64,000 bases of DNA from Streptomyces sp. NBC_01314 (GTDB lineage Bacteria; Actinomycetota; Actinomycetes; Streptomycetales; Streptomycetaceae), in NCBI RefSeq assembly GCF_041435215.1, contig NZ_CP108394.1, positions 8,060,001 to 8,124,000 on the forward strand, read 5' to 3'. Positions within the stretch are counted from its first letter, which is position 1; each line of letters starts with the position of its first letter. Shown one piece after another: positions 5,740 through 51,309 of this stretch. The notes under the pieces are model-generated. The model had not been told where the DNA came from. It did not search any database and worked only from the letters and a program-made list of their open reading frames with translations. The translations under genes and the position numbers were made by a program.

Positions 5740-5820
5740 ATGCAGCCACTAGGATCTGCGTCGAGGGCCTGACCATGGGGAACGGTGACCCTCGTGGGAC
5801 ACGAGGAGCGGGGAACAGGC

Positions 5821-31600: not shown

Positions 31601-33407
31601 AGCGCTTGAGTTCCTGGTCGGCGGTGGCCAGGCGGAGGGCCGTGACCCGGCCGGCCTCCGTGGCGACGCGGACGTCGTAGCCGGCACTGGAGACGATGCC
31701 GAGCGGGGTGCCTTCGGCGTCGTATTCGAAGGTGAGCCAGTTGCCGTTGCGGTCGTCGATCTGTTCGAGGACGGCCAGATCGTCCCGGCGGTCGGTGAAG
31801 TGCCAGGTGCGGCGCGTACCGGGGTCGGTGACCGTGTAGCCGCCGTCCTCGCGGGCCAGGGGCCAGCGGGGGCCGTGGCTGGGGAGGGTCGGGGCGCCCG
31901 GCGCGGGGTGGGGGTAGGCGAGGAGCAGGCCGTCCTCGGTGATGAAGACGACGCCCTCGGAGTCGATCTCCAGGCGTTGGTCGATGGTGGAGGACCAGGA
32001 CGGGCCGAACCACTTGCCCAGGTGGTAGCCCGACTCGACGCGGCGTCTGAACACCAGGGGAAGGGCGCCGGGTAACGTCACGTCTGTCTGGGGGAGGTAC
32101 ATCCGGCCGGTGGCGAAGTCGATCGGGTCGGAGCCCCGCGACTCCACCGCGTCGGGCTGGCGCGAGTCCCGGCCGGGACCGTCGCTGACACTCTCTCGCG
32201 CCGGCATGTCCGGTTTCTTTCCCGACTCGAGCACGTCCTCGACGGTGTGTCTGAGCGTGCCTTTGATCCCGCCCGTCACCGCCCCGCGCGCGGCCCCCGC
32301 TCCCTTGGTGCCGAGCAGGTCGAGGACGACGCGGCCCCCGAACTCGGACGGGTCCTTCTTGGCGGACTGCCAGGCGTCCTTGAGGGCCCGATCGGGGTGG
32401 GCGACCGTCGATGTGAGCCCCGCGAGCGTCATGTTGACGTTCTGGTAGTACTCGGCGGGGTGGGCGATGTTGTACGGGTCGAGGGCGTTCATGCTGCGGC
32501 CGAAGGTGATGATGCCCGCGCCGCCCTTGACCACGCCTCCGACGACATGGGTGAGTTCCACGGCCGATGACGCACCCTGGTCGGCGAAGTTGGCGGCGAG
32601 TTTGAGGGCGGGGGGTAGTGCGGCGGGGGCGTGCTCCAGGGCGGCCTTGACCGAGGTGGTGGCGGTGCGGGCGGCCTCGTTGCGCTGGCGGCGGGCCTCC
32701 TTGAGGAGTTCGTGGGCGCGGGTGATGTCCGCCTTGCCGGGGTCGCTGAACTCCGCCGGCTTGGGGCCGGGGTCCTCACCGGCCTTCACCTTGGTGTTGT
32801 AGGCGTCGACCTTGGAGTTGTACGCGTCCACCGCCGCCTTGGACGCCTTGATGCCCGCCGTGTAGGCGTCGACGGCGTCCTGGGCCTGGCCCTGGGCCCA
32901 CTTGACCGTGTCCGCGTACGCGTCGAGCGCCTTGGCGGCCTTGTCGCAGGCGTCCGCCGCGTGCAGCCACTTCTTGGGGTGCATGGCGAACTTCTCGCGG
33001 AAGGTGTCGGCCGCCTGTCCCTTCCACCGGGAGGAGTCCAGCTTGCGCATGCCGTCGCCGACCTTGTCGAAGGCCGTGTGGAAGTCCTTGAGGTGTTTGG
33101 CGCTCTCCTGGATGCGCGTCGGGTTGCCGTGGATGAGTTCATTGGCCTGCTCGGTCTCGCCGAGCTGCTGCTCGCCGGGGGTGGCGCCCAGGGCGGACGC
33201 GGCGCCGTCGCCCCAGTCCTCCACCTTGTCCGCCACACCCTTGAGGCCCATGTCCTCCAAGCGCTCACCGGCGTAGTCGGTGCCCTTGTCGATGCCTTCG
33301 CCGACGAGCTTCTTGCCGTCGTCGTAGACCTCTTCGGCCTTGCCGACGACGGTGTTGGCGGCGCCCTTGAGCTTGTCTTCCACACCGTCCGGGATCCAGC
33401 CACCCAT
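28608..33407 (-). CDS. RHS/YD-repeat polymorphic toxin with pertussis-like ADP-ribosyltransferase tail
   Basis: 1599 residues. Residues 1-~270 are a helical WXG/ESX-like export region (LDSSRWKGQAADTFREKF). Residues ~410-1390 carry DUF6531 (DPIDFATGRMYLPQTDVTLPG) and many YD repeats. The core end YFRHYDPETARYLTPDPLGL lies near 1400-1425. The last ~150 residues are a separate toxin domain: VYRGDTRLPEDMFQNGF near 1467 resembles the RxDxR start of pertussis toxin S1, WVGTSKSAS near 1505 fits the S-T-S strand, and EREVIF near 1563 the catalytic Glu. So it probably transfers ADP-ribose to a host target. Tip and immunity gene are AT-richer than the shell, the mark of exchangeable toxin cassettes. 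Export probably by a type VII-like system encoded elsewhere. Confidence 0.9.
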   Translation of the reverse strand: MGGWIPDGVEDKLKGAANTVVGKAEEVYDDGKKLVGEGIDKGTDYAGERLEDMGLKGVADKVEDWGDGAASALGATPGEQQLGETEQANELIHGNPTRIQESAKHLKDFHTAFDKVGDGMRKLDSSRWKGQAADTFREKFAMHPKKWLHAADACDKAAKALDAYADTVKWAQGQAQDAVDAYTAGIKASKAAVDAYNSKVDAYNTKVKAGEDPGPKPAEFSDPGKADITRAHELLKEARRQRNEAARTATTSVKAALEHAPAALPPALKLAANFADQGASSAVELTHVVGGVVKGGAGIITFGRSMNALDPYNIAHPAEYYQNVNMTLAGLTSTVAHPDRALKDAWQSAKKDPSEFGGRVVLDLLGTKGAGAARGAVTGGIKGTLRHTVEDVLESGKKPDMPARESVSDGPGRDSRQPDAVESRGSDPIDFATGRMYLPQTDVTLPGALPLVFRRRVESGYHLGKWFGPSWSSTIDQRLEIDSEGVVFITEDGLLLAYPHPAPGAPTLPSHGPRWPLAREDGGYTVTDPGTRRTWHFTDRRDDLAVLEQIDDRNGNWLTFEYDAEGTPLGIVSSAGYDVRVATEAGRVTALRLATADQELKRYGYTDGNLTEVVNSSGLPLRFTYDEAGRVTSWTDTNNRGYAYEYDDQDRCIAEGGTDGHMTLRVSYDATDPDTGLRVTTTTTGEGHTRRFVINEAWQVVADIDPLGAVTRYERDRHNRLLSLTDPLGHTTTFRYDEAGNPTVVTRPDGREARAEYNGLGLPTRLVNPDGTVIRQTYDERGNRTSVTAPTGLTTHFVHDDAGRLTAVTDALGHTTTVRRDRAGLPLDITAPLGAVTRYERDPFGRPVTITDPTGAVTRLEWTVEGHLARRTVADGTTESWTYDGEGNCTTHTDPMGGVSHFEYTHFDLLTARTGPDGVRHEFAYDLELRLTKVTNPQGLTWSYEYDPSGSLIAETDFDDRTLTYEHDAAGRLTSRTNTLGQVVRFERNALGQLLRKDAAGDVTTYAYDMTDQLAQATGPDGTTLTILRDRFGRVRSETVDGRELTHEYDDVGRRTGRTTPTGMTTTWTYDAAGRRTGMVAAGRAIDFTYDEAGRELTRQIGETVALAHTFDPVGRLTTQAVTDASGRPLQHRAYTYRADGNLTGIDDQLSGTRHFNLDTTGRVTAVHAANWTETYAYDEAGNQTSAFWPSNHPGREATGDRSYEGTRITRAGRVRYEHDPLGRITLRQKPRLSRKPDTWRYEWDTEDRLASVTTPDGTRWRYTYDPLGRRTAKLRLADDGETVVERVDFTWDGTTLCEQTTTSPALPNPVTLTWDHQGLRPVTQTERIAAAGVSQQQVDSRFFAIVTDLVGTPSELIDEHGEIAWRTRSTLWGTTAWATDSTTYTPLRFPGQYYDPETGLHYNYFRHYDPETARYLTPDPLGLAPAPNPVGYVQNPLEEIDPEGLTPCRQAVADDFNVPRKAVVEPRVVYRGDTRLPEDMFQNGFSPKGTNEDIGRYALHDDPSNWVGTSKSASQAGNFPMSAQGRGTWVYEIRGAGYGVDVNRSLGGAIRAWINGTGFPSEREVIFRNIDPSNIVRAERWRYGMPTGEIIENPGYVG

Positions 33408-34123
33408 CAGCTGCCGCCCCCGCTCTGCTGCTGTCCCTCGGTCTGGGCCGCCTGCTCGCGTTCCTCGCGGGAGGGGCCGTACTGCTGGTCCAGCGACGCC
33501 TCGTACTCCTGGTCGGTCATGCCCATCGCCTTCTGCGGGTCGAGGGGCCCGTTCTCAAGGAGGGGCGACGTCATGACGTCACGTTGGGTGTCGTTCCAGG
33601 CCTGGTCGGTGTTCTCCTGGGCCCGTTGCCAGGACTCCGCGCTCCAGTCGGAGGTGGCGAACATGTGGTTGTCGCCGATCTCGCCCCAGGACATCTGTGT
33701 GACCTGGTCCTCGCTGAGGTGCGGGTTGCCCATCACGGAGTTCGCCGCGATCTTGAAGGTGCCGTCGACGTACTGCTCGGTCTCGTAGAACGTCCCCGCC
33801 GCCAGACCCACGGCGTCCGCGAAGCTGCTGCCCTCCAGGATCAGCGCACGTACCCCCCATTCCCAGCGCTCACAGAAGGTGTCGAGCGCCGACGTCAGTC
33901 CCCCGTGCCCCAACTCCAGGCCGGACAGGGCCAGATCGGAGAAGCCGCGGCCCACGCTCGCTTCGCCGACCATGCCGAGTTCGCGGAGCTCCGACATGGC
34001 CAGGTTGATGCCCTCGGTGATCAGGGAGAGGGCCTCTACCTGCAGGTCCTTTCCGCCGCCTCCGCCACCGCCTCCGCCTCCGCCACCGCCTCCGCCGCCG
34101 CCACCGCCTCCGCCGTCGTTCAT
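33407..34123 (-). CDS. WXG/ESX-like protein with a 21-glycine N-terminus
   Basis: 238 residues, ATGA-coupled to the gene before and one-base-overlapping the RHS start. After MND come 21 glycines in a row. The body has helices typical of type VII substrates and chaperones (LGHGGLTSALDTFCERWEWGVRALILEGSSFADAVG) and a C-terminal part WAESW-like (DWSAESWQRAQENTDQAWNDTQRD), ending in a Gln/Gly-rich tail. It probably pairs with the RHS N-terminus for export. No membrane segment. Confidence 0.8.
   Translation of the reverse strand: MNDGGGGGGGGGGGGGGGGGGGGGKDLQVEALSLITEGINLAMSELRELGMVGEASVGRGFSDLALSGLELGHGGLTSALDTFCERWEWGVRALILEGSSFADAVGLAAGTFYETEQYVDGTFKIAANSVMGNPHLSEDQVTQMSWGEIGDNHMFATSDWSAESWQRAQENTDQAWNDTQRDVMTSPLLENGPLDPQKAMGMTDQEYEASLDQQYGPSREEREQAAQTEGQQQSGGGS
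34052..34114 (-). repeat. GGN-repeat coding for 21 glycines
   Basis: A 63-bp purine-rich (in the coding sense) simple repeat of glycine codons GGC/GGA/GGT. Slippage-prone in multiples of three, so its length may vary between strains. Confidence 0.95.
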
Positions 34124-34749
34124 CGAGCCAACTCCCCGGGCGGGTCGATTCCGTTCATGTCGTTCGCGCCTGGGCCGGGGCGTGCGCCTGCGTCCACCGC
34201 CGCCACGTCCGGCACGATGCCCATGACCGGCGGGAACAGTGCGCCCTGCCCCTCACTGCCGACGTCCAGCGCCACCCCGTACGGAACCGGCATCGCCGGG
34301 ATCGCCACGTCCAGCAGCCGGGCGCCCAGGACACGGTCGTACGGCCACTCCCGCGTCCCTTCGCCCCTCGCGACGGCAAATCGGGCCAGGGAGGGCTCGT
34401 CCGAGAAGGCATAGATCCAGCGGATACCGCCGAACTCCCCGGTGAGCGGGTCGCCGTCCACCGACAGGGGCACCAGGACCGCCGTACGCCGGAACTCACC
34501 GAGCAGAGCGGCGGCTTCGCGCCGACGACGACGGCGGTGGATGGCGTCCTGGTCGGTGGCAGGCTGCTCGAGAGCGGCATCCGGAGCGCGTTCAGGAGGG
34601 GGCAGGGGGGTGACCTCGGCCGACTCTGCCGGGGCGGCCGACTCTGCCGGGGCGGTCGGCTCTGCCGGGGCGGTCGGCTCCAGGTAGTCGTAGATCCTGG
34701 ACCGGCGTGTACCCTCCGGCGCTCCACCGCCTCCCCTGTGATCGGACAT
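34120..34749 (-). CDS. SseB-like protein at the head of the toxin operon
   Basis: 209 residues from ATG 34749 (34761 is an alternative). The C-terminal ~130 residues (RRTAVLVPLSVDGDPLTGEFGGIRWIYAFSDEPSLARFAVARG) match the SseB N-terminal fold that is common beside type VII secretion effectors in actinobacteria. The front has a Pro/Ala/Glu repeat (TAPAEPTAPAESAAPAES). Role probably in secretion or regulation of the effector; not known exactly. Confidence 0.75.
   Translation of the reverse strand: MSDHRGGGGAPEGTRRSRIYDYLEPTAPAEPTAPAESAAPAESAEVTPLPPPERAPDAALEQPATDQDAIHRRRRRREAAALLGEFRRTAVLVPLSVDGDPLTGEFGGIRWIYAFSDEPSLARFAVARGEGTREWPYDRVLGARLLDVAIPAMPVPYGVALDVGSEGQGALFPPVMGIVPDVAAVDAGARPGPGANDMNGIDPPGELAR
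34619..34681 (-). repeat. 18-bp tandem repeat inside the SseB-like gene
   Basis: Three and a half copies of an 18-bp unit (GCCGACTCTGCCGGGGCG and a variant starting GTCGGC), coding for the PAE-rich linker. In-frame, so copy-number change would alter only linker length. Confidence 0.9.
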
Positions 34750-34886
34750 GCGTGCGATCATCGCATCGACGCACTACGAGCTGCAACGCCAAGCCGTCGG
34801 CGAGCGGTTCGAGGTCCTGCGGGACCTGAGCGGGTTCTGTGCCCAAGCCCGCGCGACGGTGGATGGCATGGGGATGAGCGGTGGCC

Positions 34887-35759: not shown

Positions 35760-38700
35760 ATGGCACAGCAGCCGCCCCTCCTCCGCGATGTCATCGACAT
35801 CAAAGAGAACATCTCCACCTCGGACTTCGTGCTGTCCCTCGCCGAGGCGACGACACCCGACGGCGCCCGGCACGCGCTCAAGGACTACGTCGTCACCGAG
35901 CGGCTGCTGGAGAACTTCGACGAGGCGCTGGCCCTCGTCAAGTCCGCGCTGGACGGGCACCGTTCCAAGGCGGCCTACCTCCACGGCTCGTTCGGTTCCG
36001 GTAAGTCGCACTTCATGGCCGTGCTGTACGCGCTGCTCAGCGGCGACCCGGCCGCCCGCGCCCGCAGCGAGTTCGACCCGGTGCTGACCAAGCACGAGTG
36101 GCTGGGCACGGACGGCAAGAAGTTCCTGCTCGTGCCGTACCACATGCTCGGGGCGAAGGCCCTGGAACAGCGGGTGCTCGGCGGGTACGTGCACCACGTC
36201 AAGAAGCTGCACCCGCAGGCGCCGACCCCGCAGGTGTACCGGACCGACTCCCTCTTCGCCGACATCCGCGCCATGCGCGCCAACATGGGCGACGAGGCGG
36301 TCATCCGCGGCCTGGGCAGCAGTGACACGGACGATGAGGAGGACGAGTGGGGCGAGGGCTTCGCCTGGACCCCGCAGCTCCTCGACACGGCGCTCGCCGC
36401 CGAGGAGATCCACGAGGAGGGCGCCCGGCTCGACCTCCGCAACCCCTCCACCCCGGCCGAGCTGCGGGCCAAGCTGGTCAACGACGCCAGCACCAACCTC
36501 CTCCCCGGCTTCGCCAAGAACGCCGCCGAGAACGAGCACGGCTTCATCTCCCTCGACGCGGGCCTGTCCGTCATCGCCGAGCACGCCAAGTCACTGGGCT
36601 ACGACGGACTGATCCTGTTCCTGGACGAGCTGATCCTCTGGCTCGCCACCCTCATCCACGAGCAGAAGTTCGTCGCCCGCGAGGCCAGCAAGATCACGAA
36701 CTTCGTGGAGGGCGGTGACGCCCGCCGTGCCATCCCCGTCGTGTCGTTGATCGCCCGCCAGCGCGACCTGCGCGAGCTGGTCGGCGAGGAGGTGTCGGGC
36801 GCGGCGGAGGCCTCCATCCAGGACACCCTGAACCTGGCCTCCGGGCGGTTCGACAAGATCACCCTGGAGGACCGCAACCTTCCGCAGATCGCCCACGCCC
36901 GCCTCCTCAAGCCGAAGCCCGGGACGGAACAGCTCGTCGACGCGGCCTTCGAGCAGACCAAGCGGGTCGGCACCCAGGTCTGGGACACCCTCCTCGGCTC
37001 GGACAAGGGCACGACCGGCGCGGACGCCGAGTCGTTCCGGCTGACGTACCCGTTCTCGCCCGCCTTCATGGACACCCTGGTCCACATCTCGTCCGCGCTG
37101 CAGCGCTCCCGTACCGGTCTGAAGCTGATGGGCGAGCTACTCGCCGACCACCGCAACGAGATCCGCCTCGGGCAGCTCATCCCCGTCGGCGACCTCTACC
37201 CGGTGATCGCGGAGGGCGGCGACAAGCCGTTCACCGACAGCCTGAAGGTCGTCTTCGAGGCGGCCGACAAGCTCTACAAGAACAAGCTGCGGCCGTACCT
37301 GCTCAGCTCGTACGACATCACCGAGGACGACGTCGAGCAGTACCTCAAGCGGCCCGAGGAGATCATCGACCCGCAGCACGCCAACCGCTGCCGCATGTTC
37401 GTCGGCGACAACCGGCTCGTGTGCACCCTGCTGCTGTCCGCGCTCGCGCCCAGCGTGCCCTCCCTGGCCGAGCTGACCATCCGGCGGCTCGGCGCGCTCA
37501 ACCACGGGTCGGTCCTCGCGCCGATCCCGGGCGCCGAGGTCGGCATCATCAAGAACAAGGTCGCGGACTGGGCGGCCAGGTTCCCCGAGATCAAGGAGAC
37601 CGGCACCGACGCCAACCCCGGCGTACGGCTGGAGCTGTCCGGCGTCGACGTGGACTCCGTCATCGCCAACGCCCAGGTCAACGACAACCCCGGCAACCGG
37701 GTCGCCCTCGCCCGGCGGCTGCTGTCCGAGGAACTGGGCGTCGAGCACGGGCAGTTGACCGACCAGCTCGGCTTCGTGTGGCGCGGCACCGCCCGCACCG
37801 CCGAGATCGTGTTCGGGAACGTCGCCGACGAGGACGAGCTGCCCGACCACGACCTGATGCCGCAGGAGGACGGTCGCTGGCGCATCGCCATAGACCTTCC
37901 CTTCGACGAGGGCAACTGGGGCTGGGCCGAGGATGTCGACCGCATGCGGCGGCTACGCGAACGGCAGCAGGACGAGCGCTCCCGCACCGTCGCCTGGCTG
38001 CCCGCCCGTCTGTCCGCGCAGCGCCTCATCGACTTCCGCCGCCTCGTCGTCATCGACAAGGCCCTCGCCGACGAGCACCGCTTCGACACCCAGTACGCCG
38101 GCCACCTCAACGCCGACAACCGCAGCCGCGCCAAGGGCCTCCTCGAAACCCAGCGCGAGGCCCTGCTCAAGCAGGTCAAGGGTGCCTTCAAACAGGCGTA
38201 CGGACTCGCCCAGAAGCAGCCCGCCGACGTCGTACCCGACTTCGACGACCATCTCGTCGCGCTGCCGGACGTCGACGGCCTCACCCTGTCCTTCGGGCAG
38301 AGCCTGCACGACGGCATCCGGCACGTCGCGGGCAAGCTGCTCGCCCACCAGTACCCCGCCCACCCCGACCTCGATCCCGACGCCACCGAAACCGCCGTCA
38401 AACCCACGGACACGCGCAAGGTGTTCACCCATGTACGGGCCGCCGCAGAGGCGCGCGACGGGCGGGTGGAGGTCCCGGCCGTCGACCGCAAGCTCATGCA
38501 GCGGATCGCGGGGCCCCTGCGCCTCGGGCAGCAGAAGGAGGCGTACTTCGAGCTGTCCCGCTACTGGGCCGACCACTTCCGCCGGCTCGCCAGCGCCCAG
38601 GGCGTCACCGGGGACCTGTCGCTGATCACTCTGACCGACTGGACGGACAAGCCCGACCCGCGCGGCCTGCCCGACTTCCTCGCCCGGCTCGTCGTCGCCG

Positions 38701-39641
38701 CCTTCGCCGAGATGGACGACCGGGTGTGGGTGCGCGGCGGCTCCGTCCTCGACCCCGCGCCCGAACTGTCCGCGATCAAGGACCACGACGCGCTGCGCAG
38801 CCAGCCGCTGCCCGCCGAGTCCGACTGGGACACGGCACGGCAGCGCTTCGAGACGGTCTTCGGTGAGAAACCGCCCGCTCTGCGGCGCGGACGTATGGTC
38901 AACCAGTTCGCCCGGCAGATCATCGAGGCCGCCCACGCCCACCGGGATCACACGGCCGACCTGGTGCACCAGTTGGAGGCCCACGCCTCCTTCCTCGGCC
39001 TCGACCAGACCGCCGACACCGGGCGGCTCGCTCTCGCCCGCCGCTCCCTGGAACTGCTGGACGCGCTCATGGCCGAGGCCGGCAAGGGCGCGGCCGGGGC
39101 CAAGAAGACCGTGGAGGCCCTCGCCTCATTCGACCTGGGCGAGACCAGCGCCGACCGGTACGGCACCTCCATCAAGAAGGCCCGCACCGTCGCGGAGGCC
39201 ATCGCCTCCGCGCCCTGGAGCACCTTGGAGCTCGCCGCCGGGCTAGGCCTCGAGGGCGAGACGCTGCTCGACTCGTTGCGCAACGTGGCCCGCGACGACC
39301 AGCGCACCGCGGACCTGCGCGACGCCCTGGCCCGCACCCAGCGCGAGGTCGTCGCCCTGGTGAAGCGCAGCCAGGCCGCCACCCCGCCGCCCGCGCCGGT
39401 CGTACCGCAGCCCACGGCCGACGACCTGGACCTGGGCAGGCCGACGAGCGATCCGCGGATCCCCTTCACCCCGCAGGAGACGCCCTCCTCCGGCTCTTCG
39501 GGGAGTGGCACCACGCGGAAGTCAGGGGCCCGCCGTACGACCGTGGCGCGGGCCGCCGCCGACATCCAGGCGGAACTGTCCGAACTGGCCGCCCGCCACC
39601 CCGACGCGAACATCGAGATCACCTGGAAGGTCGTCGAATGA
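35760..39641 (+). CDS. pglY: PglY, P-loop ATPase of type 2 BREX
   Basis: 1293 residues from ATG 35760. Walker [12 protein letters not shown] (~76-86) and Walker [14 protein letters not shown] (~283-295), with the large helical body typical of the BrxC/PglY family. PglY is needed for phage resistance; its ATPase is essential in the S. coelicolor system. An acidic loop ([12 protein letters not shown]) lies near 184-198. Its stop overlaps the pglZ start (ATGA), so the two are translated together. Confidence 0.95.
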
Positions 39642-42568
39642 CGGACACCGTCGACGTCGCCGCCGTCCCGGGCGCCGTCCGGCTGAACACCGCGACCGTC
39701 ACCCAGTACCTGTCCTCGCAGACACACCTTGCCGCCTCCCTGACGGGGGCGGACGGGCGGCGCAGGGTGGTGCTGCTGCGGTCCGCACCCCAGTGGGACG
39801 GCCCCGCCGAACCCGCCTGGGGCGAGGGCCGGACGGCCGGTGTCGCGGTGGCGCTTTCGCCGCTCGCCGTTCACGAACTCGTCCTCGACCACCTGGTGGG
39901 CCGCCGCCCCGGCCCCGCCGTCCTGGTGGTCCTCACCGACCGCGAGCAGAACGAACTCGACCCGGCGATCCTCGCCCGCGTCCACAGACTGCGCATCGAC
40001 ACGGTCGACAGCTGGGACGTCGTCCGCGAGGCGTTCGGTGCCCGGAAGATCGACCCGCGCCTCAAGGACGTCAACTGGGCCGCCGAAGCCCTGCTCGACG
40101 CCACCCCGCCGACCACGGGCGGCTGGCCGCCGGTGCCCGGCGGCTGGCTGTCCCGCCAGTACGCCGTCACCGCCCTCGCCCAACGTCGCCTGCGCCTCGG
40201 CCGCTACGACATCGAGGGTGCCGCACGGCGCCCCGGCGACGACAGGCTCGACGTGCAGACCCTGCTGCACTGGTCGACCCGGCCCGGCGCCCCCGAACGG
40301 TTGCTCGGACTACGTGGCCCCGAGCGCGCCGGACTGACCGCCTTCCTCGGCGAGGAGGACCAGGCGGGTCTCGCCGGACGCGCCCTGCTCGCCCTCGTCG
40401 ACGCCGAACGCGGCGCGGACGCCGCCGCCTTCGGCCTCGTGTGCGCGGCACTGTGGCAGCACGCCGAGCCCGCCCCCGAGACGTACCAGGCCCGGGGCCG
40501 AGCCGAACGCTACTTCGGCGACCGGCCCCCGGCCGTCGGCGAACAGCTCGACGCCCTGGTGGCCGTCTTCGGTCGGGCCTCCGAGGAGTACGTGACCACG
40601 CTGCTGGCGGCCGGACACCGCACCGGCGGCGCCGACGCCGACCAGGCCCGCGAGGCACGCCGCACCACCGGGACCGTGCTCGACCGGGCGGCCGCGCTGG
40701 CCCGCCAGTTCGGCGCCGAGCAGGCCGTCGGGGCCAGCCCCGTACTGCGCGGTGGACTTGAGGCCCGGTTCACCGCCGTAGGACGAGCACTCACGCTGGA
40801 CCACAGGAGCACGGTGGCGGAGGCCGTCCGGCGCCTGGAGGACCACCGGCTCGCCGACGAGCCGGAGGAGTCCGCCCGCATCGAACGCGCCCGCATGGGG
40901 CAGCGCCTCGCCCGCTGGCTGGCCATCGAATCGCCCGCCGAGTCCCCCACGGTGGCCGACGCCATACAGCGGCACATCGCCGAGACCGGCTGGGTCGACC
41001 TCGCCCTGGAGCACATCGAGGCCGGCGGCGACCCGGACCCCGTCCTCAAGACCGCCTACGACACCCTCGGCACACGCGTCCGGGACCGACGACGGCAGAT
41101 GGACGCGCTCTTCGCGCGCGCTCTGGCCGTCTGGACGGAGGCCGGCACCCAGCCCGGCAGCATGCTGACCGTCGAGACCTTCCTCGACCGCGTGGTCGGA
41201 CCGGTCGTCCGGCGCGGAGAGGAGCGGCGGGTGCTGCTGCTCGTCCTCGACGGCATGAGCGCGGCCATAGCGAACGAACTCGGCGAGGAACTACGCCGCT
41301 CGTGGGCGGAGTTCGACCCGCTGGCCGAGGGCGCCCCGCACCGGCGTGCCATGGCCGCAGCTCTGCCCACCCTGACGGCCGTGTCCCGGACCTCGCTCTT
41401 CGCGGGCACCCTGATGAAGGGCACCCAGGCCGACGAGAAGCGGCTGTTCCCCACACTGAAGCTGTGGGGCGGCGCCCCGGCCGCCGCCTTCCACAAGGAC
41501 GACCTGCGCACCGACACCGCGGGCGACGCCTTCGGCCCGGCCCTCACGGAGGCCCTCACCGACGGCAGGACGCATGTCGCCGTCGTCCTCAACGCCATCG
41601 ACGACCGCCTCGCCAAGGAACAGAAACTGGGAGACGGGACCTGGCGGGTCGACGACGTCCCCGGCCTGCGCGACCTGCTGCGGGTGGCGGCGGCACAGGG
41701 CATGGCCGTCATCCTCACCAGCGACCACGGCCACGTCGTCGACCGGCACGGCAGGAAGGTCGACACCGCCGCCGACCCCGCGTCCGCCCGGCACCGCCTG
41801 CCCGGCGACGGCCCGCTCGCCGACCGGGAGATCGCCCTCTCCGGCCCGCGCGTGGTGTGGCCCCAGCCCGGCGCGTCCATCGTCGCGCTGTGGGACGCCG
41901 ACTCCCGCTACACCGCCCTCAAGGCCGGCTACCACGGCGGTGCCTCCCTCGCCGAGTTCACCATTCCGGTACTGGCCTTCCTGCCGTTCGGGGCGGAACC
42001 CCCCAAGGGGTGGCGGGAGTTGGGGGATCAGCGGCCGGTCTGGTGGGCTCCGGAGGAGATCGGCAGGACGCTGCTGTCGAGTGAGCACACCACTCAGCCG
42101 GCGGTCGGCACGACCCTCGCCGCGCCGAAGAAGCCGACGGGGAAGTCCCAGAAGAAGCAGGCGGAACTCGAGCGAACGCACGACGCGCTCTTCGACGTGG
42201 AGCTGACCGCCGGGGGAGACGACGCCCTTCTCACCCCGACCCTCGTCAACCGGACCGAGGCGCTCGTCACGACGCTGCTCGACTCGGAGACGTATCAGGT
42301 GCAGCTCGACGGCCTGGCGCGCAAGCCGCAGCAGGAGCAGGTCCACAAGGCACTCGCCGCCCTGCTCGACGCGGGCGGCACCCTGCCCGTGACCGCGCTC
42401 GCCCAGCGCGCGGGCATGCCCACCACCCGTGGCGACGGCTTCGCGGCGGTCCTGCGGCAGCTCCTCAACTACGACGGCGTACAGGTGCTGGAGACCCTGC
42501 CGGACGGGCGCACGCTACGGCTCCATGAGGGTCTGCTCCGCGAGCAGTTCGCCCTCGGGGCGAACTGA
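39638..42568 (+). CDS. pglZ: PglZ, alkaline-phosphatase-fold protein of BREX
   Basis: 976 residues. The alkaline phosphatase superfamily core lies in the C-terminal half: [21 protein letters not shown] (~533-553) with the first metal-binding Asp, [12 protein letters not shown] (~647) and [15 protein letters not shown] (~690) with Asp-His-Gly-His metal ligands. PglZ occurs in every BREX type. In some BREX types it has nuclease activity. No membrane segment or signal peptide. Confidence 0.95.
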
Positions 42569-42654: not shown

Positions 42655-42765
42655 TCTCACGCGCGTAGGCGGTGAACATGGCTTCGAGCCCCGGGCATGA
42701 ACGGTGCCGGGTGCGACGACGATCTCGACGCAGTCGGCGCCACTCGTACCTCTGGAGCTGCTGGG
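42655..42765 (-). pseudogene. Relic of a DUF397 gene
   Basis: On the minus strand one frame reads SRGTSGADCVEIVVAPGTVHARGSK, the middle of a DUF397 protein; after a loss of about a dozen codons the next frame reads AMFTAYARET, its end. No start or XRE partner is present. Confidence 0.55.
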
Positions 42766-42896
42766 CTGCAGCGAGCCCGTGGCCTGCCGTGCGCTCCGCA
42801 CGCGGTCATCCTGCGGGCCCAATGTCATTGCGGATCATTACAGTTGTTCCGCCGACCGCCCGTGCGGCTGGATCCGTTCTCGAAGGAGCTCCTAAG

Positions 42897-44207
42897 GTGC
42901 ATTTACGAAGACGTGCGGCGGGTGCCGCGCTGGTCTTAGCGGCCGCGTCGTTCAATCTGCTCGGTGCCCCTGGCACGGCAGCGGCGCAGTCCCAGGGCGG
43001 CATCGTTCTGCCTGTGCGGTCGCACTGGCAGACCCTCGCCGACAGTCGCCATGTGTATGTCAGCGCGCCCGGCGACGATGCTGTGCTGGCCACCGACCAC
43101 GACGGGCAGGTCGTGAAGAAGGTGGAGGGTCTCGACGGGGCGCGGGGCATGGCCGAGTCGGCCGACGAGTCCACCCTGTACGTGGCGCTCCCGGACGCTG
43201 ACGCGATCTCCGTCATCGACACCGCGACCTTGACCGAGACGCGGCGCATCTCCACCGGCGCCGACACCGAACCGGAGAGCGTCGCCCTCGCCGGCGACCG
43301 GCTGTTCTTCGGCTACCAGGCCACCGTTTTCGACGCCGGCATCGGGTCGGTCGCCATCGCCGAGGCGAGCCCGGCCGTCAGCCTGGACGACAACCCCGTC
43401 TGGTACGGCAAGCCGCGGCTCGCCTCGTCGTCGGGCGCGCCCGACCGGCTCGTCGCCGCGGAGAGCCAGGGCGCGGCGGGCATGCGTGTGTACGACGTGG
43501 GTTCCGGCACGCTTCGGGAGATCGCCTACAGCGACGCCGTCGGCGACGTCGAGGACGTGGTGGTGACGCCGGACGGCAGCAGTGTGATCACCGCGAACGG
43601 CTCCAACTACTACCACCAGCGGTGGCGCCTGTCGGACCTGACGGAGGAGGCCCAGTACGACACGGGCCCCTACCCCAACTCCGTCGCTGTCGACTCCCAC
43701 GGCATGGTTGCCGCGGGGATCGTGGCGGGAGGGGACTGGGACGTCTACCTCTACCGCCCGGGAGAGACCGCCGCGTACCGCACGGTCGCGTTGTCGCCGG
43801 GGTACGCGAATCTGCTCGACCGGGGCGTGGCCTGGGCGCCCGACGGCAACCGGCTGTTCGCCACCCGCTTCCCCTACTCGGGCGAGGTCATCCTCGACAT
43901 CGTCACCGACGTCGCCAAGGCATCCAGCACGATCACTCTGTCCGCCCCGCCGACGAACCCCGTCGGCACGCCGGTCACCGTGACGGGGAAACTGACCTCC
44001 CTGATCCCCTTCCCCAAGCACAGAACGGTCACGGTGACGCGGAACGGCGTGGAGCTGCCGGATGTGAAGGTCGGACGGGACGGCACCTTCCACTTCAGTG
44101 ACACCCCGCCTGACTGGAACACGTATCCCCAGTACACGGTCACCTACGCGGGCGACGCCACGCATGTGCCCGGCACGGCGACCGTCATGGTCGAGTTCGT
44201 CGGCTGA
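42897..44207 (+). CDS. Secreted YncE-like beta-propeller protein with Ig-like domain
   Basis: 436 residues from GTG 42897, behind AAGGAG at 42882-42887 and giving a normal signal peptide (HLRRRAAGAALVLAAASFNLLGAPGTAAA). The middle is a seven-blade-type propeller (VYVSAPGDDAVLATDHDGQVVKKVEG, LYVALPDADAISVIDTATLTETRRI, VVVTPDGSSVITANG). The last ~95 residues form an Ig-like domain of the type found in actinobacterial surface proteins (TLSAPPTNPVGTPVTVTGKLTS). Extracellular. No link to BREX function is evident, although it sits between pglZ and brxD. Confidence 0.85.
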   Translation: MHLRRRAAGAALVLAAASFNLLGAPGTAAAQSQGGIVLPVRSHWQTLADSRHVYVSAPGDDAVLATDHDGQVVKKVEGLDGARGMAESADESTLYVALPDADAISVIDTATLTETRRISTGADTEPESVALAGDRLFFGYQATVFDAGIGSVAIAEASPAVSLDDNPVWYGKPRLASSSGAPDRLVAAESQGAAGMRVYDVGSGTLREIAYSDAVGDVEDVVVTPDGSSVITANGSNYYHQRWRLSDLTEEAQYDTGPYPNSVAVDSHGMVAAGIVAGGDWDVYLYRPGETAAYRTVALSPGYANLLDRGVAWAPDGNRLFATRFPYSGEVILDIVTDVAKASSTITLSAPPTNPVGTPVTVTGKLTSLIPFPKHRTVTVTRNGVELPDVKVGRDGTFHFSDTPPDWNTYPQYTVTYAGDATHVPGTATVMVEFVG

Positions 44208-44713: not shown

Positions 44714-45760
44714 TCAGGACACGAACGCCCGTAGCACCTTCGCGAAAGTCGTCAGCTCGTCGAGCAGCTCCTGCGGAAGCGGCTTCTCGTCGAAGTGGGC
44801 GATCCGGTTGCGGATGTCCTTCACTCGTTCCAGGCGGCCGATGAACTGTTCCCTGGGCATGTTGGGCCACTTCAGGGCTTCCCAGTTGGCGTCGGCGCGT
44901 TCGGCCAGCGCGGTCTTCGTCTGGTCGCCGTCAAGGAGTCTCAGATAGTCACCGAACATGAGGTCGGAGACCTGGCCGGTGCGGTGCTCGGCCTTCTTGT
45001 TCGTCTGAACGGCCTTGATGGTTTCCTCGTCCAGCGCCGCGCCCAGGCAGCGGCGCAGCAGGGACTCGATCTCCCCGACGATGAAGAAGGGCCGTGCCGC
45101 GCCCTCGAAGCGGTCCGTGACGTCCGCGGCGGTGACGATGCCCGAGAGACAGCCGTCGTCGCCTCGGACCAGGAGATATCCGTGTTCGCGGATGACCGGC
45201 AGGGCGGAGAAGAACTCCTGGCGGGTGTCGGCGACCGGAAAGGAGTCCTTCTCCATCGCGTTGTCCAGCGTCGGCTGCTTGCCCGCCTCGTACATCTTGG
45301 CGACGGACCCCCAGGTGACCACCCCATGGACCTGCGCCATGCCGGTGGTCACCGGGACCTGGGCGAGGCCCTTCGTGCGCATGAGGAACGTGGTCTGCGC
45401 CAGGGGCGTACCGGGACCGACGGACACCAGGCCGCGCCGCGCCGACGGGATGTCCCCGAGCAGCAGACGCTGCGGAAGGGCGGCCGAGGGCAGGGCCTCC
45501 TCCGTCTCGTCCTCCTCCGTGTCGGCGGGGGCGGCCTGCGCCGGGATGGACGCGAGCGGCACCACGTCGACGTTGCTGCGCTGGCCGCAGACGGCGAAGT
45601 CCGGCAGCGTCGTCAGCCCGGCGTCCGTGAGCGCCTGCGAGATGCGGTGCACCGTCCGGTGGTCACGGACCCTGACCTGGAACAGGTCCAGAATGTCCTG
45701 CACGGGCACGGTCCTGCCCTTGAGCGCGGCGAGGTCCTGCCCGCTCGGAGTGATCGTCAT
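44714..45760 (-). CDS. CBS-domain protein with C-terminal HEPN-like RNxxxH motif
   Basis: 348 residues, ATGA-coupled to the DUF262 gene before it. Residues ~95-215 hold a CBS pair (PGTPLAQTTFLMRTKGLAQVPVTTG then VHGVVTWGSVAKMY; EHGYLLVRGDDGCLSGIVTAADV), which in other proteins binds adenine nucleotides. The C-terminal ~115 residues are helical and include RVKDIRNRIAHFDEKPLP; RNRIAH (near 319) fits the Rx4-6H active-site motif of HEPN ribonucleases. This suggests a nucleotide-sensing RNase or a regulator of the DUF262 partner. The HEPN call is inference from one motif in a helical context. Confidence 0.75.
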   Translation of the reverse strand: MTITPSGQDLAALKGRTVPVQDILDLFQVRVRDHRTVHRISQALTDAGLTTLPDFAVCGQRSNVDVVPLASIPAQAAPADTEEDETEEALPSAALPQRLLLGDIPSARRGLVSVGPGTPLAQTTFLMRTKGLAQVPVTTGMAQVHGVVTWGSVAKMYEAGKQPTLDNAMEKDSFPVADTRQEFFSALPVIREHGYLLVRGDDGCLSGIVTAADVTDRFEGAARPFFIVGEIESLLRRCLGAALDEETIKAVQTNKKAEHRTGQVSDLMFGDYLRLLDGDQTKTALAERADANWEALKWPNMPREQFIGRLERVKDIRNRIAHFDEKPLPQELLDELTTFAKVLRAFVS

Positions 45761-47574
45761 CGGGCGTCGCCCTCCGCGAGGTCACGGAGCATGGTCCTCT
45801 TGCCCATGGCGGAGTGCACGAGATCCTGCAACTGCTTGGAACGGTCGTTGTAGAACCGTTCGTAGTCGTTCTCGCGGAGTGCTTCCGGATCGATGAGGTG
45901 GGTGGCGAGCACATCGTCGAACCACTCGGGGCGCATGTCAGAGGCGGCGACCATCGTGGACAGGTAGGACGCCGGCGCCCCGGTCATGTCCATCGCCGCG
46001 CGGTAGGACAGAGGGGTCTTGTTCACGATGGAGTTCGTGGGCAGGTCCTGGCTGTTGCCCCGCCGGAACCAGGTCTTGGGGAAGATCTGCCGGACGTCCA
46101 CGCTGTACTCGTCCAGCCTGCCGGGCTTGAGCGGGCTGTCCGTGTAGTGCCAGTCCACCGCCCCCTGCTTGACCAGCAGGGCGTAGATGCCTTTGTAGGC
46201 GGCGCTGTTGCGGGTGGTGAGGCTGTCGAGGCGGTCGGCGAAGAAGAACGCGTCCGTGACGGTGTCGGGTGCTCGGTCGCCCTGCGCGATCCAGGGGACG
46301 AGCTGCTCGACGTCACGGGTGAAGCGGGTCTCGGTGGAGCCTCCGTACATCTCGCCGAGGACTCCGCACCAGTACCACTGCTCGGTCTTCTCCTCCGCTC
46401 CCAGGCCGTCCAGCGCCGTGTCGAGGATGGCGCGGACGGCCGCGAGCGGGACGAGCTGTGTCTTGTACGGCAGATCGTTCGGACGGACGATGCACTGCCG
46501 TTCCAGGAAGTCGCCCACCCAGGCGAAGGCGTCGGTGAGTTTCGGCGCCAGCCGGACGAAGTCGGCCAGCGGGAGGTCCAGCAGATCCCGGCGCTTGCAC
46601 GACACCGTCGCCCCGGTGCCAGCCTGCTTCCGTTCCCAGGTGCGCACCAGGGCGATGGCCTGCAGGAAGTCGATGCTGCTCAGACCGGTCTCGATGCCGT
46701 TGCCCAGACGGCCGAAGACCGGGTACTTGGCCGCCAGCCCCTGCTTGATCTCCCGCCACACTTTGGGGAGCTGGTAGTAGTCCCCGGTCCGGTCCACGTG
46801 CTCGCGGTCCCCGGCGTAGGTCGCGGTGAGCAGTTCGAAGACGTTCAGGGGCACACCGCCCGTGTTGACCCGCTCGAACACCGCGCAGACGGCGTCCATG
46901 GATGTGGTGGCGGCCAGCCGGATCATCGGGACCTGGAAGGCGCGGATCTGCTGGAGGACCGACTCGTCGAACTGGCCCCACAGTTCCCAGTTCTGGTTCT
47001 CGTCCGCCTTGATGTACGACATCATCCACTGGTTCACGCGTTGGGCGTCGAAGACGAGATGCAGAGGGAAGAGACCGGCCGCGCACTCGCCCTCTGTGGT
47101 GCTCAGATCCAGCACCACCGTGCGGTTGAAGTCGGTCCGGAGCACTTTGTCCGCCGGAACGGAGAGGATGGCCTCGTCGCGGTCCGCGGACGGGCCGACG
47201 GCCTTCGCGATGTCGACGTAATACCACCGCTCGATGGGCTTGTTACGGGCGTCCGCGGTCTCCACCGGGGCGTCCAGCCACAGGGCCTGGAAGAGGGAGG
47301 TGAGGCGCTGCTGCCCGTCGAGCAGGAGGAGGTCCGCGGCCGGATCCCCGTCCGGGCGCGCTCCGGTGAGCGTTCGGGAGCGGAATCGGGTGGCGCCGCC
47401 GGTCTGCAGCGTCATCACCACGCCGAGCGGATAGTCCAGCGTCACCGTCGCGATGATCGCGCGAATCCTGTCGTCGTCCCACTTCCAGTTCCGCTGGAAG
47501 TCGGGCAACTGTAAGGAGCCCGACGCCACATCCGCGAGTACGTCCTTCAGCTTCACATTGTCGAGTGCCGCCAC
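45757..47574 (-). CDS. DUF262 (GmrSD-like) protein
   Basis: 605 residues from GTG 47574 (AALDNVKLKDVLADVASGSLQLPDFQRNWKW), chosen because the DUF262 domain starts here; the longer open frame is an unlikely extension. The DUF262 signature LLLLDGQQRLTSLFQAL (~83-99) is intact; in GmrS and related enzymes this site handles nucleotide. The C-terminal part (LATHLIDPEALRENDYERFYNDRSKQLQDLVHSAMGK) is the usual end of this family. I could not find a clear HNH (DUF1524) nuclease motif. Related type IV restriction enzymes destroy modified DNA; one (BrxU) is known from inside another BREX island. Transcribed against brxD, away from it. Confidence 0.88.
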   Translation of the reverse strand: MAALDNVKLKDVLADVASGSLQLPDFQRNWKWDDDRIRAIIATVTLDYPLGVVMTLQTGGATRFRSRTLTGARPDGDPAADLLLLDGQQRLTSLFQALWLDAPVETADARNKPIERWYYVDIAKAVGPSADRDEAILSVPADKVLRTDFNRTVVLDLSTTEGECAAGLFPLHLVFDAQRVNQWMMSYIKADENQNWELWGQFDESVLQQIRAFQVPMIRLAATTSMDAVCAVFERVNTGGVPLNVFELLTATYAGDREHVDRTGDYYQLPKVWREIKQGLAAKYPVFGRLGNGIETGLSSIDFLQAIALVRTWERKQAGTGATVSCKRRDLLDLPLADFVRLAPKLTDAFAWVGDFLERQCIVRPNDLPYKTQLVPLAAVRAILDTALDGLGAEEKTEQWYWCGVLGEMYGGSTETRFTRDVEQLVPWIAQGDRAPDTVTDAFFFADRLDSLTTRNSAAYKGIYALLVKQGAVDWHYTDSPLKPGRLDEYSVDVRQIFPKTWFRRGNSQDLPTNSIVNKTPLSYRAAMDMTGAPASYLSTMVAASDMRPEWFDDVLATHLIDPEALRENDYERFYNDRSKQLQDLVHSAMGKRTMLRDLAEGDAR

Positions 47575-47761
47575 GTTCGTCCCACTCCCACCCTGCCGTA
47601 TGTACGGAGAGTGATTCCAGCAGCGTCTACGGGTGACCGTCAACCGATTCAACGAAGTAGGCGCCCCGCCACGGTGCCCGCGCGCAGCGCGGACCGATCG
47701 ACGGCCGTCCGCCATCCGGTTCCCGTACGGGCGTGCCCGTGGAAATGGAAGACTGGCTCCT

Positions 47762-49111
47762 GTGAGCACCACCGGATCCCAGCGCCCCGCCCAGGTGAGC
47801 GCCGCCCGCCGCCGTACCGTCATCGACGCGCTGCGACGCGGTGCCGTGCCCGACAGTGGACTCGACCTGCTGGCCACCGGACTCGACCGGTTCGAAGCGG
47901 CCTTGGACGCGGAACTGGACTCGGTGGCGTCGGGCGGGTCCGTGTTCAAGGCCGTGCGGGGCGAGTACGGGTCCGGCAAGACGTTCTTCACCCGCTGGCT
48001 GGGGGAGCGGGCCAAGCGTCGCAACTTTGCCGTGGCCGAGATCCAGATCTCGGAGAACGAGACACCGCTGCACAGGCTGGAGACGGTCTACCGGCGGCTC
48101 ACCGAGCGCCTCACCACCTCCAGCTTCCCTGCGAGTGCCCTCCGCCCCGTCGTCGATGCCTGGTTCTACGCACTGGAGGAGGACGCACTCGCCGCCGGTG
48201 CGACCGAGGACCACCTTCCGGGCGAGGTGGAGAAGCTGCTCGTCGCACGGCTCGCCGAGGTCTCCCGGCACGCCCCGTCGTTCGCCACCGCTCTGCGCGG
48301 CTACCGCGCCGCCCTCGCGGACGGCGACGAGGCGACCGCGGCGGCCGTCCTGGCGTGGCTCGGCGGCCAGCCGCACGTGGCGGCCTCCGCCCGCCGATCT
48401 GCCGGCGTGCGCGGCGACCTCGACCACTTCGGTGCGCTCGGGTTCCTGCAGGGGCTCCTCACCGTGCTGCGCGACTCAGGACACACCGGGCTGTTCATCG
48501 TCCTCGACGAGGTAGAGACGCTGCAGCGGGTCCGGTCGGACGCCCGTGACAAGGCACTCAACGCGCTGCGGCAGCTCATCGACGAGGTGCACTCGGGCCG
48601 CTTCCCTGGCCTCTATCTGGTCATCACGGGCACCCCGGCCTTCTACGACGGTCAACAGGGCGTGCAGCGTCTGGCACCGCTAGCTCAGCGGCTGGCCACC
48701 GACTTCACCACTGACCCGCGCTTCGACAACCCTCGCGCCGTGCAGATCAGGCTTCCCGGCTTCAACCAGGAGTCCCTGGTAGGACTCGGCCTCACCATCC
48801 GTGACCTGTACGCCGATGCCGCAGAAGCACCCGACCGTGTGCGGAAGGTCGTCGACGACGTGTATGTCGCGGACCTCGCGGTGGCCGTCGGCGGGGCGCT
48901 GGGCGGGAAGGTCGGAGTGGCTCCCCGGCTGTTCCTGAAGAAACTCGTCGGAGACGTACTCGACCGCGTGGACCAGTTCGACGACTTCGATCCCCGGCAG
49001 CACTACCGGCTCACCGTCGCCGGCAGCGAACTCACCGACGTCGAGCGAAACCTGGCGGCCACGGTCTCCGGAGACTCCGCGTCGGCCGATGACATCGACC
49101 TGGAGCTGTGA
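47762..49111 (+). CDS. brxD: BrxD, ATP-binding protein of type 2 BREX
   Basis: 449 residues from GTG 47762, taken because the conserved protein begins STTGSQRPAQVSAARRRTVIDAL; the longer open frame has no homology-like content. Walker A GEYGSGKTFF (~67-76), followed by FAVAEIQISENETPLHRLETVYRRL, and Walker B LFIVLDEVETL (~245-255). BrxD is found with BrxHI in type 2 BREX; its activity is not established. It overlaps brxHI by 1 to 4 bases. Confidence 0.92.
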   Translation: MSTTGSQRPAQVSAARRRTVIDALRRGAVPDSGLDLLATGLDRFEAALDAELDSVASGGSVFKAVRGEYGSGKTFFTRWLGERAKRRNFAVAEIQISENETPLHRLETVYRRLTERLTTSSFPASALRPVVDAWFYALEEDALAAGATEDHLPGEVEKLLVARLAEVSRHAPSFATALRGYRAALADGDEATAAAVLAWLGGQPHVAASARRSAGVRGDLDHFGALGFLQGLLTVLRDSGHTGLFIVLDEVETLQRVRSDARDKALNALRQLIDEVHSGRFPGLYLVITGTPAFYDGQQGVQRLAPLAQRLATDFTTDPRFDNPRAVQIRLPGFNQESLVGLGLTIRDLYADAAEAPDRVRKVVDDVYVADLAVAVGGALGGKVGVAPRLFLKKLVGDVLDRVDQFDDFDPRQHYRLTVAGSELTDVERNLAATVSGDSASADDIDLEL

Positions 49112-51309
49112 TGGCGGACGCGGGACTCTCGGCCGGGAGAGACCCGGGTGGCGAGGGTGTCGATGTACTGGACCTACTCGACCCCGTCGTCCTGCATCAC
49201 ATCGTCAACACCCTCGGCTGGCCCGATCTGCGCCCTTTGCAGCGGGCGGCGATCCCCCCGCTCATGGAGGGGCAGGACGCCGTACTGCTGGCTCCGACGG
49301 CGGGGGGCAAGACCGAGGCGGCCTGTTTCCCCCTGCTGTCGGCGATGACCGAGCAGAAGTGGACCGGCACATCCGTGCTGTACCTGTGCCCGCTCAAGGC
49401 ACTCCTCAACAACCTGGTCGTCCGCGTCGACGCGTACGCCCAGTGGCTAGGGCGACGGGCTGCGCTCTGGCACGGCGACACCAAGGAATCGCAACGGCAG
49501 CGCATCCGGGCCGAGGCGCCGGACGTCCTGCTGACCACGCCCGAGTCGCTCGAAGCGATGCTGATCGGCGTCAAGACTGACCATGCCCGCTTGTTGGGGA
49601 GCGTGCGAGCCGTCGTCGTCGACGAAGTGCACGCGTTCGCAGGAGACGACCGGGGATGGCACCTGCTCGCCGTGCTCGAACGGTTGGAGCGGGTCACCGG
49701 GCGGCCTATTCAGCGCGTAGGGCTCTCGGCGACCGTTGGCAACCCGGCCGAGCTGCTGCACTGGCTGCAAGGCGCGGGCGTCGGCAGCCGCAACGGTCAG
49801 GTCGTCGCCCCTGGAGTGCATCTGTCGGCCACCGACGGCAGCGGGCGAGGCGACGAAGCGATCCCCGAGCCGTCCCGCAGGCCTGCGGGCGAAGTGGAAC
49901 TCGACTATGTCGGTTCCCTCGACAATGCGGCCAAACTCATCGCGGCGCTGCACAGGGGAGAGAAACGGCTCGTCTTCTGCGACTCGCGCCGCCAGGTCGA
50001 GGAGTTGGGCGCGGCGCTCCGCGCGCGCGAGGTCACCGTCTTCCTGTCCCACGCCTCGCTCTCCGTCGATGAACGTACCCGTTCCGAGCAGGCGTTCGCC
50101 GAGGCCCGCGACTGCGTCATCGTCTCCACGTCAACCCTCGAGCTCGGCATTGACGTCGGTGACCTGGACCGCGTCATTCAGATCGACTCACCGGCCTCCG
50201 TTGCCTCGTTCCTGCAGCGTATCGGCCGCACCGGTCGGCGTTCCGGCACCGTGCGGAACTGTCTGTTCCTCACGACCCGCAAGGACACACTGCTGCAGGC
50301 GGCGGGCCTGTTGCTGCTGTGGTCGCGGGGCTGGGTGGAACCGGTCGTCCCCCCGCCAGAGCCGCGTCACTTGGTGGCCCAGCAACTGCTCGCTGTCACC
50401 CTGCAACAGCACAAGCTCGGCGACCAGTTGTGGGACCGGCAGTGGAACGGCCTCGCCCCCTTCGACAAGTCGGCTGCTCCCATCCTGCGTTTCCTCACTG
50501 AGGAGGGTTTCCTCGACAGCGATGGTGGGATGCTGTTCGTCGGCCCTGAGGCGGAACGCCGTTTCGGGAAACGGCACTTCATCGAGCTCACCGCCTCCTT
50601 CACCGCACCTCCGCAGTTCACCGTCCTGTCCGGACGCACGGAGATCGGCCGCACCGACCCGAGCGTGCTCACGGAGGAACGTCCCGGCCCCAGGCGTTTG
50701 CTACTCGGTGGACGCAGTTGGCAGGTCACGTACATCGACTGGCTGCGCAAACGCGTCTTCGTCGAGCCGGCCGACGGCGGTGGCATCGCCAAGTGGATGA
50801 ATGGCGGCGTCGCCGGGCTGTCGTACGCGCTGACGCGTGCCATGCGTGAGGTGCTGCTCGGCACGAATCCGCCCGTCTCCCTCACCCGGCGGGCGGAGAC
50901 ATGCCTGACCGAACAGCGCGAGACCGACGCACCTGACACCGTCCACCCGGGCGGCACGTTGATCACGCGCGTCGGCTCAGACGTCCGCTGGTGGACCTGG
51001 GCCGGCTACCGCGCCAACGCCACCCTGGCAGCCACCCTCCAGTCGGTCACCGACCCTCTGCAACGCCCCACCGACAGCTGGCTGCGCCTGCGCGAGAACC
51101 TCGCCCCGGCCGACTGGCGTGCGGCCCGTGACGACGTCGCCGAGAACCTCGTCCTGCCAGATGTGGACCGCCGGGCCGTACGCGGCCTGAAGTTCTCCGC
51201 CGCCCTCCCGGAACGCCTCGCCGTGGCCACGGTGGCGGCCCGCTTGGCCGACTTCGAGAGCGCCGGCATGGTGCTTGGCGAGCCGACGCGCTTTCAGCAC
51301 GACGGCTGA
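49111..51309 (+). CDS. brxHI: BrxHI, Lhr-like superfamily 2 helicase
   Basis: 732 residues from ATG 49111 (GTG 49108 is also possible). Helicase motifs are complete: APTAGGKTEA (~62-71), TPESLEAML, DEVH (~171), SATVGN (~206) and QRIGRTGRRSG (~369-379), with the Lhr-type C-terminal extension. It is the last gene of the BREX set. ATP-driven nucleic acid remodelling is expected; the role in defence is unknown. Confidence 0.94.
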   Translation: MADAGLSAGRDPGGEGVDVLDLLDPVVLHHIVNTLGWPDLRPLQRAAIPPLMEGQDAVLLAPTAGGKTEAACFPLLSAMTEQKWTGTSVLYLCPLKALLNNLVVRVDAYAQWLGRRAALWHGDTKESQRQRIRAEAPDVLLTTPESLEAMLIGVKTDHARLLGSVRAVVVDEVHAFAGDDRGWHLLAVLERLERVTGRPIQRVGLSATVGNPAELLHWLQGAGVGSRNGQVVAPGVHLSATDGSGRGDEAIPEPSRRPAGEVELDYVGSLDNAAKLIAALHRGEKRLVFCDSRRQVEELGAALRAREVTVFLSHASLSVDERTRSEQAFAEARDCVIVSTSTLELGIDVGDLDRVIQIDSPASVASFLQRIGRTGRRSGTVRNCLFLTTRKDTLLQAAGLLLLWSRGWVEPVVPPPEPRHLVAQQLLAVTLQQHKLGDQLWDRQWNGLAPFDKSAAPILRFLTEEGFLDSDGGMLFVGPEAERRFGKRHFIELTASFTAPPQFTVLSGRTEIGRTDPSVLTEERPGPRRLLLGGRSWQVTYIDWLRKRVFVEPADGGGIAKWMNGGVAGLSYALTRAMREVLLGTNPPVSLTRRAETCLTEQRETDAPDTVHPGGTLITRVGSDVRWWTWAGYRANATLAATLQSVTDPLQRPTDSWLRLRENLAPADWRAARDDVAENLVLPDVDRRAVRGLKFSAALPERLAVATVAARLADFESAGMVLGEPTRFQHDG

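Follow-up and report, generated by a model that had tools for sequence, protein, structure and literature searches.

A gene pair within a type 2 BREX locus

The window analysed here, the whole 64,000-nucleotide stretch of Streptomyces sp. NBC_01314 DNA, carries a type 2 bacteriophage exclusion (BREX; Pgl) locus in which two overlapping genes lie on the minus strand between pglZ and brxD. The first encodes a DUF262 protein and the second a protein that combines a CBS pair with a HEPN-like C-terminal domain. The nearest named homologues are from Streptomyces. The original prediction, made from the letters of the window, had placed such a pair inside the BREX locus, and its outline stands: the pair occupies 44714-47574, the two reading frames overlap at ATGA and the DUF262 protein carries a DGQQR motif. 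It had overlooked a further gene at 42672-44207, described below. The pair and the genes that border its slot are as follows.

45757..47574, minus strand: DUF262 (GmrSD_N) gene, first of the pair, GTG start, 605 amino acids
44714..45760, minus strand: CBS-pair and HEPN-like gene, second of the pair, ATG start, 348 amino acids
45757..45760, minus strand: ATGA overlap of the DUF262 stop and the CBS-HEPN start, seen in the sequence and read as translational coupling
39638..42568, plus strand: PglZ of type 2 BREX, bordering the slot on the left (PADLOC PglZ 8.1e-267)
47633..49111, plus strand: BrxD, bordering the slot on the right (PADLOC BrxD 4.2e-207; Pfam BrxC_BrxD 8.7e-144)

The mechanical open reading frame (ORF) of the DUF262 gene extends to 48024; the GTG was taken as its start, the position at which close homologues of 605 residues begin.

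The pairing recurs across actinobacteria. A scan with one genome per species, using an alignment (A3) of eight context-blind homologues and two picked from known pairs, gave 74 loci, and in all 74 a DUF262 gene lies directly upstream of the CBS-HEPN gene, which upholds the adjacency on which the original prediction depended. The implied spacing is -1 in 34 and +2 in 22 of the 74 pairs, with a range from -23 to +26, and in one locus (L094) an early stop interrupts the DUF262 gene. The association was also examined in reverse, in loci fetched for DUF262 matches from 394 genomes of the class: a CBS-HEPN gene stands alongside in 12 of 12 cases at 47% identity or above (window excluded) and in 0 of 17 at 45% or below, with one place at 52% left out. 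Protein distances for the two partners correlate at 0.97 over 72 loci, and in a quick tree the paired CBS proteins cluster together, with weaker support (80).

A survey of 150 Streptomyces genomes found CBS-HEPN matches in 21. Ten are full-length at 40% identity or more, all beside a DUF262 gene; three genomes (G029, G115 and G080) hold only fragments in that identity range, with no DUF262 gene in the fetched piece; and eight match at 32% or less, with no DUF262 gene within about 1.5 kb. Scanning 396 genomes of the phylum, with at most five candidates scored per genome, gave two matches besides the window. No relatives were found in 50,697 phage records, and none of 33 pattern matches in viral contigs was a confirmed relative. 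On sequence grounds, DUF262 and CBS-HEPN constitute a conserved two-gene unit.

The DUF262 partner and its probable loss of nuclease function

The DUF262 protein matches Pfam GmrSD_N (8.4e-25) and contains the sequence LDGQQR, in which DGQQR (residues 86-90) is invariant over all 87 CBS-HEPN-linked DUF262 copies compared. PADLOC names that match its N-terminus are PDC-M55C, HEC-05 and NsnA. A sequence search found no solved structure for it, and the predicted model has a BrxU-like fold over its full length. The HNH site is degenerate. In the window protein R495, Q496 and A527 stand where unpaired relatives carry H, H and N, while N518 is kept. An intact H,H,N triad is present in none of the 87 CBS-HEPN-linked copies, which hold varied residues at these positions (R/Q, L, M, Y), compared with 18 of 19 unpaired relatives, defined by the lack of a CBS-HEPN match within roughly 1.5 kb. 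The count is drawn from 113 sequences of at least 540 residues, 106 after removal of identical ones, and leaves out L081 (contig end), L094 (early DUF262 stop), the partial sequences L045, L172 and L174, and L031, which repeats the window. This pattern suggests that the HNH nuclease of the DUF262 partner has probably been lost, and the protein would therefore not be a BrxU-like cutter of modified DNA, a point on which the original prediction needs changing.

A competing view holds that the DUF262 protein is, like BrxU, a still-active type IV restriction enzyme, with the CBS protein acting only as its regulator. It is consistent with the BrxU-like overall model, the conserved DGQQR and the persistence of one of the two HNH histidines in 11 of the 87 paired copies. 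Nevertheless, the absence of a complete triad from every paired copy and the invariant RN-x3-H site of the CBS partner itself make this view very improbable. As a candidate, a working BrxU homologue was rejected on the loss of the triad.

The CBS-HEPN protein

The second protein has a Pfam CBS match (6e-8), with the CBS pair at about residues 95-223, and its predicted model (pLDDT, predicted local distance difference test, 87.5) contains this pair together with a helical C-terminal domain at about 211-347. Within that domain RNRIAH occupies residues 317-322, giving a putative R-x4-H site of R317 and H322. Pfam HEPN_Swt1 is matched at 0.056 by the whole protein and at 0.0065 by the C-terminal piece, both below the curated cut-off. 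An R-x4-6-H motif is found in 114 of 114 close homologues. Across the 74 paired loci every copy keeps the arginine, and 73 keep the histidine, which is missing only from a frameshifted copy, so the conservation of both residues on which the original prediction rested is borne out. A set of 19 diverse C-terminal domains shows no variation at R, N, H or F (19/19; RN-x3-H), and a chance occurrence of RNRIAH was rejected on that basis. The same 19 domains give recurrent weak Pfam matches, to HEPN_Swt1 in eight, HEPN_RiboL-PSP in five and the unrelated DUF6548 in six. Together with the conserved motif, we take this to indicate that the C-terminal domain is likely a HEPN domain.

A CBS-HEPN architecture has been reported for DS-11, described in the accessible portion of a 2026 study as a one-protein defence system with CBS and HEPN domains (DefensePredictor, Science 2026, PMC13092281). 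At the site equivalent to Tyr157 in the CBS region of DS-11, the 74 paired loci carry Y in 36, L in 20, V in six, F in six, I in three, C in two and H in one; all 11 unpaired or fused relatives carry Y or F. In a Streptomyces relative (L062:4509-7109) the CBS-HEPN module is fused behind an N6 methylase of HsdM type that also has a RAMA domain.

The arrangement of the two genes also recalls toxin-antitoxin systems, in which case the DUF262 protein would be an antitoxin that holds a constitutively active CBS-HEPN ribonuclease (RNase), freed upon infection or upon loss of the labile partner. The would-be antitoxin gene comes first, the overlap is tight, the genes are always together and a dead nuclease site fits a purely binding role. 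However, a 605-residue protein with an invariant nucleoside triphosphate (NTP) pocket (DGQQR in 87/87) exceeds what a simple antitoxin needs, and relatives of DS-11 exist with no DUF262 neighbour. We therefore regard the toxin-antitoxin explanation as unlikely.

The pglZ-brxD slot

Further genes of the window define the setting of the pair.

35760-39641: PglY/BrxC, strong PADLOC match
49108-51309: BrxHI, strong PADLOC match
42672..44207, plus strand: beta-propeller/Ig-like gene that separates pglZ from the pair, weak Pfam matches

The beta-propeller/Ig-like gene, which contains two TTA codons (78 and 89), has a relative at the same place in three of the 74 loci (L072, L073 and L097) and is probably not part of the two-gene unit.

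BREX genes are present in the fetched flank of 54 of the 74 paired loci, in keeping with the earlier claim that the pair belongs to a BREX locus. In 51 the pair lies between pglZ and brxD; it is convergent with pglZ in 49 of these and has the opposite orientation in two, from Nocardia. The slot is occupied in this way over Streptomyces, Streptantibioticus and Nocardia. In the other 20 loci no BREX gene is found in the fetched flank, in some because contigs end. The 150 Streptomyces genomes contain 34 pglZ places, of which seven have the pair beside brxD and 21 are closed up. The remainder comprise one remnant of the pair (G080), three AIPR genes, one 1.8-kb gap (G144) and one place without brxD (G057). 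The pair is thus found in few pglZ places, yet in the same slot, and is therefore better described as an accessory in a preferred slot than as a core part of BREX.

In G080 (L051; C1:421500-425000) a CBS-HEPN remnant with 83% identity over about 40 residues lies in a 900-base pglZ-brxD gap, which suggests past loss of the pair. In G133, G068 and G011 (L048:684-2426, L049 and L050) the slot holds a single gene of about 582 codons; the G133 product matches AIPR (PF10592, 2.9e-37) and the G068 and G011 copies start almost identically. The pglZ-brxD slot resembles a cargo site within type 2 BREX.

These data bear on whether the pair is an independent passenger for which the junction is a mere landing site, with no functional link to BREX. 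The 20 loci whose fetched flank shows no BREX gene, some of them on contigs that end early, are compatible with a passenger, as is a slot that holds an AIPR gene in three genomes and nothing in most. Against this, the slot is common to 51 of the 74 loci, across three genera and in both orientations, and three neighbourhoods examined outside BREX adjoin other modification or helicase systems. At L117 and in G105 (by L052) there is a kinase with a DrmD-like helicase and a type IIG-like methylase nearby, at L135 a DruE-like protein and at L054 an SNF2 helicase with an HsdM-like methylase. Two loci (L178 and L179, Pseudonocardiaceae-like, the family name being a guess) carry the pair with no detectable BREX genes. 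Overall, an independent passenger appears distinctly improbable.

Elsewhere in the window, PglW/PglX-like ORFs, so named by size and position, lie at 5785-14174 and are separated from PglY by about 21 kb of other genes (14175-35759). Within this insert three ORFs (14892-15922, 21437-22467 and 26585-27811) have near-identical starts (VDDEVQQ or VDDDVQQ), and two are followed by a small overlapping ORF, similar in kind; they look like paralogous regulator pairs. The insert also includes a minus-strand group at 28608-34761 for which PADLOC gave no match; it is made up of a 1599-residue ORF, another (33407-34123) that opens with a long run of glycines, and one further ORF.

A TTA codon and the probable counterpart in S. 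coelicolor

The DUF262 gene of the window carries an early rare-codon candidate for developmental control.

47512..47514, minus strand: codon 21 of the DUF262 gene, an in-frame TTA for leucine, seen in the sequence

TTA codons are absent from the window's core BREX genes. Over the 74 loci 37 DUF262 matches contain TTA versus 1/74 for CBS-HEPN, and among the BREX genes it occurs in 1/52 for PglZ, 1/50 for PglY, 0/53 for BrxD and 5/52 for BrxHI. Of the 29 loci with a DUF262 protein at least 84% identical, 24 have TTA at codon 21, as do three more loci. An early TTA in the DUF262 gene suggests control by the tRNA gene bldA in the window strain.

Accessible parts of several S. coelicolor reports describe a similar arrangement. 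SCO6638 contains a TTA codon and its stop overlaps the SCO6637 start, and both are decreased in RNA and protein in a bldA mutant (PMC2000904); SCO6636 is pglZ (PMC3017869); and the SCO6637 and SCO6638 proteins have been detected by proteomics (PMC1934918). Because position and features agree, SCO6638-SCO6637 is very probably the same pair, a judgement that draws on these published descriptions.

Discussion

On balance, we favour a model in which the two genes form an accessory defence pair, usually located in type 2 BREX (Pgl), with a nuclease-dead DUF262 sensor gating a CBS-HEPN RNase. The DUF262 protein, having given up cutting, would act as a sensor, guard or scaffold that uses its NTP pocket to sense some feature of invading DNA or of nucleotides and would control the co-translated CBS-HEPN RNase, perhaps within a physical complex. 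The CBS pair and the DUF262 partner may then release or dimerise CBS-HEPN, possibly in a nucleotide-gated manner, after which the R-x4-H site would cut RNA. The resulting RNA damage and growth stop would probably provide an abortive backup to BREX. The original prediction had suggested that such a backup may act against phages with modified DNA.

Several observations weigh against this model. Most type 2 BREX loci in the 150 genomes do not contain the pair. The link between nuclease loss and partner rests on a single origin, because triad loss and partner gain are a single event on the tree, and one relative without the partner, L173, lacks the triad as well. All Pfam HEPN matches stay below their cut-offs. 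When the CBS-HEPN model was compared with known folds, every match listed was to a CBS protein and none to a solved HEPN structure, an outcome compatible with a HEPN domain; the C-terminal domain, compared by profile with solved structures, yielded two weak matches, both unrelated (0.44 and 0.79), and nothing else. The HEPN assignment of the original prediction consequently stands in part: kinship with DS-11, as far as the accessible text of that study describes it, and recurrent weak Pfam matches speak for it, and a structural match over the domain is missing. Finally, Leu132 of the window protein occupies the site of DS-11 Tyr157, and the nearest BREX copies also have no aromatic residue at this position in the CBS region.

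A more speculative extension, which we offer tentatively and consider possible rather than probable, is that actinobacterial Pgl/BREX type 2 possesses a hitherto overlooked second arm under bldA control, in which a nuclease-dead GmrSD-type sensor arms a CBS-HEPN RNase, represented by SCO6638-SCO6637 in S. coelicolor. If true, this pair adjoins the long-studied Pgl genes, and the Pgl phenotype is therefore perhaps not due to PglX and PglZ alone; part of it could stem from RNA cleavage and growth arrest. If the favoured model is right, the old question of RNA-level abortive defence in the Pgl/BREX type 2 response becomes testable with existing S. coelicolor strains, as does the reason for tying such a unit to the developmental tRNA bldA. 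The model would also imply that a type IV restriction protein has turned from enzyme to sensor, with the killing function shifted to a partner RNase, and would provide DS-11-type CBS-HEPN proteins with a dedicated input partner.

Comparison with known systems

The original prediction had regarded a CBS-gated HEPN partner as unfamiliar, a view overtaken by DS-11. In the accessible portion of that study, DS-11 defence is abolished by alanine at CBS Tyr157 and by changes to HEPN catalytic residues (PMC13092281). Like DS-11, the window protein has a CBS pair followed by a HEPN-like domain with RN-x3-H, and its residues 21-342 match the family model over its full length (NCBIfam NF053863, DS11_antiphage). 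It scores 233 bits, however, against an equivalog cut-off of 260, whereas relatives from E. coli and Rhizobium score 405 and 382. DS-11 is moreover described as a one-gene system, and its Tyr157 corresponds to Leu132 here. The window unit was rejected as DS-11 itself on its score below the cut-off, its different CBS residue and its partner gene. The 405-bit E. coli protein, present in 127 of 5,426 E. coli genomes, carries Tyr157 within YSQLPV, shows RNDVMH close to its end and may be DS-11 itself; no DUF262 gene is annotated beside it in the three records examined.

With GmrSD and BrxU the DUF262 protein shares GmrSD_N, DGQQR and a BrxU-like predicted fold. BrxU is described in the available part of PMC10952713 as a single protein; the window DUF262 protein, in contrast, has no HNH triad, and the nuclease role appears to have moved to the separate CBS-HEPN protein. 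The same part of that source describes PD-T4-2, which unites DUF262 and HEPN within one system, so the combination as such is already in the literature. It contains no mention of a CBS domain in PD-T4-2, whose HEPN is given as PF18735, compared with PF18731 as the best weak match here. Neither protein of the pair is among the matches listed for the PADLOC PD-T4-2 model.

BREX accessory effectors surveyed recently include ParB-HNH enzymes of the GmrSD family and HEPN RNases, with proposed backup roles, and CBS and DUF262 are absent from what is accessible of the main text (Nucleic Acids Research 2026, PMC12839542). A 2013 listing, in its accessible part, includes HEPN fused to CBS and HEPN with ParB(DUF262)-HNH, and does not describe a coupled DUF262 gene and CBS-HEPN gene (PMC3710099). 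No paper describing the pair was found in the open-licence literature. With DS-11, a CBS-HEPN defence protein has already been published; what looks new is the coupling of such a protein to a DUF262 partner.
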